Positions 30,714 to 59,458 of a DNA stretch of 64,000 bases are shown piece by piece. Positions within the stretch are counted from its first letter, which is position 1; the number at the start of each line of letters is the position of its first letter. The notes under the pieces are model-generated. The model was not told where the DNA came from. It saw only the letters and a program-made list of their open reading frames with translations, and made no database searches. Made by a program: the position numbers and the translations under genes. The stretch is from Candidatus Limosilactobacillus intestinigallinarum (GTDB lineage: Bacteria; Bacillota; Bacilli; Lactobacillales; Lactobacillaceae), in the NCBI GenBank assembly GCA_019117285.1, contig DXAA01000001.1, positions 1-64,000 on the forward strand, given 5' to 3'.

Positions 30714-31895
30714 ATGCGGAAACGGATTGTGGTTGCGATCTACGTCCTCGTGGGGGCCATGGTTGGCTTTTACTACCTGCCCCTGCTCTGGGACGTATTC
30801 AACCTACACTTTGCACTCCCGTTGTTGGTATTCTTGGATATTATTATCGGTGCACTTATTTTCTGGCTGTTAGGACTGCTATTGGCCAAACCAACAATGC
30901 GACTGCTGACCCAAATTGAGCGGGAACTGACGCGCAAGAACCCACTTTACCTGATCTTCGGGTCCCTATTGACGATCTTTGGCCTGATCTTGGCGGTATT
31001 GATTTCCATTCCACTCTGGCAGACCAATATTCCGGTCGTCAACAACGTCCTGCCAATCCTGCTGATGCTGGTCTTCAGCTACCTGGGCTTTCGCCTGGGG
31101 ACGACCCGGATCGACGAATGGAAAAAGTTGCTGAACCGGCGGGGCCAACACGACGATAAGGGTGAGGTCCTGGACCGGCACGATGCCAACTACCACCATT
31201 ACAAGATCCTGGACACCAACATCCTGATCGATGGGCGGATCTACGACCTGGTCAAGACCGGTTTCTTGGAAGGGACCTTGCTGGTGCCAAACTTTGTCCT
31301 CTACGAGTTGCAGTACATTGCCGACTCCGGGGAGAGCATCAAGCGGGTTCGGGGTCGTCGGGGCCTGGACATCTTAAACAAACTGCGTAGCGAGAAAATC
31401 GTGCCGATCGAGATGTACGATGGCGACTTCGAGGACATCCCCGAGGTTGACAGCAAGCTGATTGCCCTGGCCAAGAAGGTCAACGGGGCGATTGTTACCA
31501 ACGACTACAACCTCAACAAGGTCATTCAGTTCCAAAACGTCGATGTCCTAAACATCAACAACCTGGCCAAGTCGTTGCGGCCCCGGGTGATCCCCGGTGA
31601 GACCCTCAACGTCGTGGTCGTCAAGAAGGGGACCGAACGTCAACAGGGGGTTGCCTACCTAGACGACGGCACGATGGTCGTGGTCGAGGACGGTCGTTAC
31701 TTCATGAACAAGCCGATCGAGGTCGAGGTCACCAGCGCCCTGCAGACCGATGCCGGCCGGATGATCTTTGCCCGGCCACGGCACTCCCAGCGGGGAATTG
31801 ACGATCATGCCAAGGACAATGGGCAGGCTAAAGCTACCGGCCAAGATAAGTCCAAAGATAATCCTCAGGGCAAGGCCAAGAATAAGAAGAAGTAA
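30714..31895 (+). CDS. PIN/TRAM domain membrane protein (YacL-like)
   Basis: N-terminal TM segments, KILDTNILIDGRIYDL PIN domain, C-terminal TRAM. Confidence 0.92.
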   Translation: MRKRIVVAIYVLVGAMVGFYYLPLLWDVFNLHFALPLLVFLDIIIGALIFWLLGLLLAKPTMRLLTQIERELTRKNPLYLIFGSLLTIFGLILAVLISIPLWQTNIPVVNNVLPILLMLVFSYLGFRLGTTRIDEWKKLLNRRGQHDDKGEVLDRHDANYHHYKILDTNILIDGRIYDLVKTGFLEGTLLVPNFVLYELQYIADSGESIKRVRGRRGLDILNKLRSEKIVPIEMYDGDFEDIPEVDSKLIALAKKVNGAIVTNDYNLNKVIQFQNVDVLNINNLAKSLRPRVIPGETLNVVVVKKGTERQQGVAYLDDGTMVVVEDGRYFMNKPIEVEVTSALQTDAGRMIFARPRHSQRGIDDHAKDNGQAKATGQDKSKDNPQGKAKNKKK

Positions 31896-31951: not shown

Positions 31952-32109
31952 AAAAGAAAAGGACGGCCTGGGATTGGCCGCCCTCGATAATAGGGAGTAT
32001 TACGAAAACTTGGGGGAGATTTCGTAATGATTATTTTTTCGGTTACTATTGGGAGGAGTAATTGAAAAATAATAGGTTTCATTGATGTAGCAAAGCTCTT
32101 TCTTTACTA
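31952..32109 (-). ncRNA. Candidate small RNA with C-rich (CUCCC/UCCC) loops
   Basis: -10 TATAAT (minus, 32120-32115); 5' hairpin UAGUAAAG/CUUUGCUA; hairpin 32043-32061 with loop CCUCCCAAU; hairpin 31999-32028 (AUUACGAAA/UUUCGUAAU) with loop UCUCCCCCAAGU; terminator GGGCGGCC-AAUCCCA-GGCCGUCC + UUUUCUUUU at 31952-31983. Confidence 0.55.
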
Positions 32110-32264
32110 CGCTTATTATACTAGCAGTAGAATGTGAAGAAATTATGACCAAAGTCTTAAAGAACTTTTCAACCGCTGAAATCTTCAAGTGGGCGCGGAA
32201 CAAGCCGGTTTGTGGTAAGATGAAGGAAGCAATTTGCAAGTAAATCAAGATGAGGGAGCGGATT

Positions 32265-33680
32265 AAGATGCTAACAATTTATAATACGCTGACAAGGAAG
32301 AAAGAGGAGTTCAAGCCACTACATCCAGGCGTTGTTAACATGTATGTCTGTGGCCCGACGGTTTACAACTACATCCACATCGGCAATGCCCGGTCGGCCA
32401 TTGCCTTCGACACGGTGCGGCGCTACCTGGAGTTCAAGGGTTACAAGGTCAATTATGTTTCCAACTTCACCGACGTCGACGACAAGATGATCAAGGCCGC
32501 CCACGAGCAGGGGATCACCATTCCCCAGCTGGCGGAGAAGTACATCAACGCCTTCATGGAGGACACGACGGCGATCAACATCGAGCCGGCCACCATGCAC
32601 CCGCGGGCTACGGAGAATATCCCCGACATCATCAAGTTCGTCAGCGGTCTGATCGACAAGGGCTACGCCTACGAAAAGGACGGCGACGTCTACTACCGGG
32701 CCCGCAAGTTCAAGCATTATGGTCAGCTGTCCGGTCAGTCGATTGACGACCTCGAAGTCGGGGCCAGTGAGCACGTCAGCGCTGATGAGGTGGACAAGAA
32801 GGAGGACCCGATGGACTTTGCCCTCTGGAAGGCAGCCAAGCCCGGTGAGATCAGCTGGGATTCCCCATGGGGCAAGGGCCGGCCTGGTTGGCACATCGAG
32901 TGCTCTGTGATGTCAACCAAGTACCTCGGCAAGACGATTGATATCCATGCCGGGGGTCAGGACCTGGAGTTCCCCCACCACGAGAACGAGATTGCCCAGA
33001 GTGAGGCCGAGAATGGCCAGCAGTTCGTCCGCTACTGGATGCACAACGGTTTCGTCACCATCGGTAAGGACAACGAGAAGATGAGCAAGTCCCTGCACAA
33101 CTTCATCACCGTCCACGACATCATCAAGGAGGTTGACCCCCAGGTACTGCGCTTCTTTATGGCGACGACCCAGTACCGGCGGCCAATCCAGTACAGTGAG
33201 GACAACCTAACCGACGCCCAAAACAATCTCGACCACATTCAAACGGCCTATGATAACCTGACCTATCGGGAGCAGGACGCCCAGGCCGGCGGGGACGACA
33301 CCGTCACGGCTAAGCTGGCGGACTTCAAGCAGCGCTTCACCGACGCCATGGACGACGACATCAACGTCCAGAACGGGATTGCCGTGGTCTACGAGTTGGT
33401 TAAGTATGCCAACGTCTATGCCCAACAGGACCAGGTTCAGGCAGGGGCCCTGGCTGACCTGAAGACGACCCTGGCAACGTTGATGAGCATCTTCGGGGTC
33501 AAGCTGACCGCCTCCGACAACCAGATCGACGATGACCAGATCAAGCAGCTGATTGCGGAACGCAATGCGGCCCGCAAGAACAAGGACTTCGCCCGCAGTG
33601 ATCAAATCCGGGACGACCTGAAGAAGCAGGGGATCATCCTCGAGGATACCCCGCAGGGCACTCGCTACAAGAAGGAGTAA
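32265..33680 (+). CDS. cysS: Cysteinyl-tRNA synthetase
   Basis: [41 protein letters not shown]; likely ATG near 32268. Confidence 0.94.
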
Positions 33681-39354: not shown

Positions 39355-39625
39355 AAAAAAACGTCCTTCAAGCATCGCTGTGATGCTTAAAGGACGAATA
39401 GCTCGTGGTACCACCTTATCTTCATGGAAAATCCATCTCAACCAGACATGATAATCTGTGGTCCGGGTAATGGTGGACGAGACCAGGGGAACCTACTGTC
39501 TTCAGCCCCCAGCTTCCAGGTGATGTTCGGTTCGGCGACGTCGCTTGGTTCACACCAGCCACCAAGTCTCTGCGGTCAGTCGTCAACCTACTATCCTGAG
39601 CATTGCTGTTTCTGTCTTAAATTGC
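39355..39625 (-). promoter_or_regulatory. T-box riboswitch, specifier read as AUC (Ile)
   Basis: Minus strand: AGTA...AGAGACTTGGTGGCTGGTGTGAACCAAG...AACC-GAAC-ATC-A; antiterminator motif GGTGGTACCACG; terminator gtcctttaagcatc...gatgcttgaaggacgttttttt; promoter TTGACA-17-TATGAT. Confidence 0.9.
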
Positions 39626-45624: not shown

Positions 45625-45738
45625 GTTGATTAAATATGACTCTGCCTAAGACTCAGGTGGCGAAAGCCTTAATCCAATGCCTGCCGAGGAAGAAATGTAA
45701 GTTCCTTCTCTATGTCTGCGGTCATAGGGATTTTTTTA
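45625..45738 (+). promoter_or_regulatory. Ribosomal protein L10 leader
   Basis: Structured leader with actctgcctaagactcaggtggcgaaagccttaatccaatgcctgccgagg and attenuator-like T-run just upstream of rplJ. Confidence 0.75.
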
Positions 45739-45777
45739 TAAAATCCGATCAAAATACATTGCAGGAGGTGAAAATTC

Positions 45778-59345: not shown

Positions 59346-59440
59346 TTGCCGTAAGGCCTTAGAGCAAGGTTGCACTTACGAACCGTGTCAGGTCCGGAAG
59401 GAAGCAGCACTAAGTATGAAGCAGCTTGTGCTCTAAGTTT
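59346..59440 (+). ncRNA. ffs: Signal recognition particle RNA (small bacterial type)
   Basis: gtgtcaggtccggaaggaagcagcactaag tetraloop/domain IV hallmark, closing stem cttagagca/tgctctaag. Confidence 0.95.
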
Positions 59441-59458
59441 TATTGATAATCAACTCTG

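Follow-up and report, generated by a model that had tools for sequence, protein, structure and literature searches.

What does the gap between yacL and cysS encode in Candidatus Limosilactobacillus intestinigallinarum, and what could its product do? The window analysed here is a 64,000-nt stretch of this genome (contig DXAA01000001.1, positions 1 to 64,000), to which all coordinates refer. Judged from its sequence, the locus upstream of cysS is a real, strongly conserved small RNA (sRNA) gene with an intrinsic terminator. Its parts and neighbours are listed below; the name yacL is our assumption from gene order.

30714-31895, plus strand: yacL (PIN domain; Pfam PIN), convergent neighbour
31952-32110, minus strand: body of the sRNA gene (about 155-159 nt; start predicted near 32110), matched by covariance model R1
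31952-31985, minus strand: intrinsic terminator from a terminator scan, stem 31985-31959 with UCCC in the loop, then a U tract (UUUUCUUUU)
31993-31998, minus strand: single-stranded ACUCCC ahead of the terminator (ACUCC in 39/48 relatives)
31999-32028, minus strand: hairpin 3 with CUCCCCCAAG loop (CUCCCCC), both-side changes in 4/8 pairs, 85% of cells paired
32030-32073, minus strand: hairpin 2 with CUCCUCCC loop, nearly invariant (n = 48 sequences)
32051-32069, minus strand: predicted anti-initiation-region element UUUUUCAAUUACUCCUCCC (anti-Shine-Dalgarno, or anti-SD, plus anti-UUG), the common core of the superfamily
32087-32110, minus strand: hairpin 1 (5' hairpin), both-side changes in 4/7 counted pairs
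32118-32126, minus strand: extended -10, TGcTAGTAT (conserved pattern TGnTAnTAT across 52 aligned loci)
32133-32149, minus strand: direct repeat GTCATA-N5-TTCACA, a putative box for an OmpR/PhoB-type response regulator, standing where a -35 would be expected
32250-33680, plus strand: cysS (Pfam tRNA-synt_1e), divergent neighbour

The window also holds a T-box leader on the minus strand (39387-39612; 98.4 bits), an L10 leader (45627-45745) and an SRP RNA (59350-59447).

Model R1, which itself includes the window sequence, matches 31952-32110 at 154.1 bits, and the minus strand folds at -42.4 kcal/mol compared with -23.1 ± 3.5 kcal/mol in dinucleotide shuffles (z = -5.6). The stretch is present in one copy each in 53 of 54 Limosilactobacillus genomes, with no match at all in the remaining one (G036), and Paucilactobacillus also carries the cysS-adjacent sRNA. 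Across the aligned loci of these two genera, RNA body and promoter are conserved while the flanks have diverged. Compensatory changes occur in hairpin 1, hairpin 3 and the terminator (alignment A1, 48 sequences), where both sides have changed at 9/9 counted terminator pairs, and the CUCCUCCC loop is kept. For the whole structure, 94% of cells are paired and 178 double-change cells were counted versus 48 in shuffles, a comparison inflated by kinship among the sequences, and versus 16-45 when the structures were slid by 1-3 columns, a control that retains kinship. Hairpin 2 hardly varies and therefore provides no covariation evidence, yet it is strong evidence of constraint. Conservation and covariation, like the occurrence of copies elsewhere, far exceed chance expectation. 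The original prediction had placed a promoter -10, hairpins, C-rich loops and a terminator on the minus strand, all of which were found in position, and its proposal of an sRNA with C-rich loops fit for SD pairing is well supported at the sequence level by conservation, covariation, loop invariance and the lack of a conserved open reading frame (ORF).

That the region instead codes for a small protein, or for a cysS leader on the plus strand, is scarcely credible. Although 82-amino-acid ORFs cross it on the minus strand, their candidate ATG occurs in only 27 of 48 relatives (it is missing in 21) and ORF lengths differ, which argues against a small protein; the original prediction likewise saw no convincing ORF. 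A cysS leader is rejected because no leader family matches the plus strand and because the promoter repeat and the terminator U tract both lie on the minus strand.

The window RNA has four C-rich sites that are mostly unpaired, and the C-rich motifs are likewise mostly unpaired across relatives. In hairpin 2, the loop CCUCCCAAU is enclosed by UUACU/AGUAA; the C-rich motif of hairpin 3 has an unpaired probability of 0.96, and the ACUCC stretch has a mean of 0.95 across relatives. The CAA (anti-UUG) within UUUUUCAAUUACUCCUCCC is the Limosilactobacillus form, which is replaced by CAU in relatives. In one genome (G038, locus L040), a natural deletion takes out the UAUUUUUUCA arm of hairpin 2 and the CUCCUCCC loop is kept.

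Upstream of the gene, the TATAAT (32120-32115) that had been proposed as the -10 is present and overlaps the extended -10 TGcTAGTAT; the latter is preferred because relatives keep TGnTAnTAT, not TATAAT. No -35 element occurs at this minus-strand promoter. The direct repeat that stands there instead, about 9 nt upstream of TAGTAT, is conserved in Limosilactobacillus and Paucilactobacillus and, like the multicopy, order-wide family described below, is missing from the original prediction.

The setting next to cysS raises the alternative of a mainly local role, in which divergent transcription or antisense action tunes cysS or yacL while the C-rich loops are secondary. Divergence from cysS is indeed kept at 85/87 loci where both are placed (a set that includes duplicate records), with a promoter-to-cysS start distance of 97-238 nt. 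Such a role is nevertheless very improbable: the RNA has its own terminator before yacL, its body and promoter are maintained between diverging flanks, and relatives elsewhere in the Lactobacillaceae and the order sit at other genomic locations.

Those relatives make the window RNA, on present sequence comparisons, a member of a large Lactobacillales sRNA group that often has several paralogs per genome. Model R1 finds members at about 37-52 bits in other Lactobacillaceae; Paucilactobacillus has extra copies, and a genus that is probably Lactiplantibacillus (g38) has several clustered copies per genome. Model R2, built from the relatives found with R1, matches 147 of 398 Lactobacillales genomes at E <= 0.01, although drift among its distant matches is possible because of that origin. 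Beyond Limosilactobacillus, we infer family and genus identities except for Paucilactobacillus and the Ref84 loci discussed below. A common core is directly visible in relatives, namely ACUUUUUCAUUUACUCCUCCAAAGUAAAU, then ACUCCUUUU, then the terminator, and the element common to the group, UUUUUCA[U/A]UUACUCCUCC, is complementary to translation starts. Clusters of two to four paralogs occur in g38 (L173, L178, L184, L190, L198), where one paralog class (GTGATTGAACTTGTCACTC...) lacks the TTCACA repeat; its upstream region carries a conserved TTACCTTTTAAC-like sequence that may be the site of another regulator. In another family (f9), short and nearly identical relatives stand in tandem, three or four to an array and about 200 nt apart (L298, L299, L300, L310).

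Among named RNAs, the nearest is Ref84 by sequence, the csRNAs by layout and LhrC by overall logic. No Rfam model matches the window region at threshold; weak matches include Ref84 (RF02846), for which the window RNA scores 17.8 bits against a gathering cut-off of 52 bits. The link to Ref84 is stepwise: R2 matches coincide with Ref84 loci in two genomes (Enterococcus; L301 and L302, at 100.9 and 100.1 bits for Ref84 and 48 bits for R2), and distant R2 relatives score 37-45 bits against Ref84; intermediates match both models. Shared features are the UUUUUCAUUUUACUC core and UACUCCUUUU ahead of the terminator; Ref84 lacks hairpins 1 and 3 of the window RNA; neither of the two Ref84 loci shows a clear TTCACA repeat, unlike the window RNA. 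E. faecalis sRNA_109 and E. faecium sRNA_093 are similar to Ref84 and of unknown function (PMC7724050).

The CiaR-controlled csRNAs of Streptococcus occur several per genome, with stem-loops at both ends and anti-SD and anti-AUG sequences, and their promoters have two 6-mers, separated by N5, some 10 nt ahead of the -10 (PMC3091779). The window promoter has the same layout with a different repeat sequence (PMC3091779): the CiaR box TTTAAG-N5-TTTAAG is absent and GTCATA-N5-TTCACA is found instead. The window RNA also has stem-loops at both ends (hairpin 1 and the terminator) and, in UUUUUCAAUUACUCCUCCC, predicted anti-SD and anti-start-codon sequences. It differs from csRNAs in being larger, with two C-rich hairpins, and in having a CUCCUCC loop instead of UCCUAAA; the csRNA stretch [A/C]UCCUAAA[A/C] does not occur in it (CUCCUCCCAAU does), and UCCUAAA is found only in relatives of one family (f4), which carry ACUCCUAAAA with UUUUUCAUUAA as csRNAs do.

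In Listeria, the multicopy LhrC1-5, Rli22 and Rli33-1 are controlled by a two-component system that responds to cell-envelope stress, and these RNAs have several UCCC/CU-rich sites in loops, a single-stranded stretch and the terminator loop (PMC4132741). The window RNA, too, has several UCCC/CU-rich sites, some in loops and others single-stranded. However, it has no match to the LhrC model (RF00616) up to E = 10, one distant relative reaches 35 bits with the cut-off at 110, and the LisR element of LhrC lies at about -55 to -75, whereas the window repeat adjoins the -10. A search of 12 whole genomes with RF00616 found nothing and is uninformative because its controls were silent too. By sequence, the window RNA does not pass the formal tests for Ref84, csRNA and LhrC and so is assigned to none of them. 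RsaE and RoxS, to which PMC4132741 also refers, have C-rich motifs and pair with SD sequences. The window RNA shares the motifs and is predicted to pair likewise, and the RsaE/RoxS-type reading of the original prediction holds only as a likeness in presumed mode of action; membership is not supported, with no Rfam match of the region to this family even at E <= 10, and the sequence relatives that were found are other Lactobacillales RNAs, including Ref84. Ern0160/Ref19C of Enterococcus represses LysM-protein genes (PMC12870237), a role similar to that suggested here, but its locus adjoins queA and it pairs inside the ORF, unlike the start-site pairing predicted for the window RNA. By analogy, the sRNA most likely works as csRNAs or LhrC do, through an OmpR-type envelope-stress regulator and occlusion of the ribosome-binding site.

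The promoter repeat extends the comparison to other genes. KTCAYA-N5-TTCAYA is a consensus common to many copies, about 9 nt upstream of the -10. Among 83 distant copies, which are non-redundant but not phylogenetically independent, the relaxed repeat lies upstream of 40 (0.3 in shuffles and 0 in the reverse complement) and is absent from 43; the strict form lies upstream of 34 (0.02 in shuffled upstreams and likewise 0 in reverse complements), and enrichment occurs at spacer 5 only. Exact box sites are rare, with 18 in 12 genomes and none for a reversed control pattern. Except for two, they lie in front of C-rich sRNAs, two further sRNA types included. Both types lie directly 3' of an exact TTCACA-type box in g38 (L200 and L212-L214; L201 and L217), and the second is about 240 nt long. 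The box is also found upstream of LysM-NlpC/P60 genes, and a weaker version precedes htrA in 14 genomes (best-score sum 217 versus 185.1 ± 2.8 in shuffles). In genome G035, a near-perfect box (GTCAAATATTTTTCATA) lies 126 nt upstream of walR (L459); walR autoregulation was rejected because 13 other genomes do not share this box.

PhoP-type repeats read TTHACA-N5-TTHACA. The TTCACA-N5 repeat fits this pattern and the reverse-strand WalR consensus as well as it fits the site of an envelope-stress regulator, and motif comparison did not distinguish PhoP-, WalR- and LisR/CiaR-like regulators. The RNA might consequently be a conserved sRNA with SD-pairing loops outside any stress regulon, its repeat being a basal promoter element or the site of a regulator for another signal, such as phosphate or WalR. 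We regard this as unlikely, as the repeat also occurs at htrA and at a LysM-NlpC/P60 hydrolase gene, which suggests a connection with the envelope. The window RNA is probably a trans-acting sRNA, induced by an OmpR/PhoB-type regulator, that blocks ribosome binding under envelope stress, a reading based on sequence features. Under envelope stress, an OmpR/PhoB-family response regulator bound to KTCAYA-N5-TTCAYA, which replaces a -35, would activate the sRNA together with htrA and a gene for a cell-wall hydrolase. The resulting noncoding RNA of about 155 nt would expose up to four C-rich sites. Its central element UUUUUCAAUUACUCCUCCC would pair with the SD sequence, start codon and lysine codons, so that ribosome binding is blocked, and the other C-rich loops could make additional SD contacts. 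Targets would be envelope or surface genes.

An SD sequence, a start codon and AAA (lysine) codons are typical of the starts of many signal-peptide protein genes. The complement of the core, GGAGGAGUAAAUGAAAAA, has just these parts, and the 3' arm of hairpin 2 in relatives (AGUAAUGAAAA) resembles the predicted target. Pairing was scanned over 1.2 Mb of one genome (G035; 60% of it). Ten signal-peptide-like genes are among the 25 best pairings, compared with a mean of 4.2 and a maximum of 9 in 60 flank-shuffled controls, which is suggestive only because several cut-offs (top 25, 50 and 100) were viewed. The top matches, named by eye, include htrA, a YSIRK surface protein and a secreted protein of LysM-like type. 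Total pairing with start regions in this part of the genome was not above the flank-shuffled controls, a search for GGGAGGAG...ATG in four genomes found no gene in common, and a search of 54 genomes for the 13-nt complement mostly returned the sRNA itself, with no genus-wide target. Targeting is therefore presented as a hypothesis. The 13-nt complement matches a YSIRK-type surface-protein start in G035 and G005 only, and this start (GGAGGGGUAAUUGUAUG, L. reuteri group) is the best candidate for pairing with the CUCCUCC loop.

A wider reading, in which we place somewhat less than even confidence, is that one ancient Lactobacillales regulon is involved: an envelope-stress OmpR-family regulator acting at TTCACA-N5-TTCACA would drive htrA and one to several start-directed sRNAs, and the CiaR-controlled csRNAs, Ref84 and the window RNA would be diverged branches of that regulon. 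In the open-access literature, no report of a cysS-adjacent Limosilactobacillus RNA was found and conserved trans-acting sRNAs of Lactobacillaceae are scarcely present; this lactic-acid-bacterial sRNA group is almost undescribed so far. Lactobacillaceae are important gut and food bacteria, hence the interest of an sRNA family for which a regulator site, an active element and co-regulated genes can all be predicted. The comparison also brings the orphan Ref84 of Enterococcus, the streptococcal csRNAs and the window RNA under a single comparative frame.
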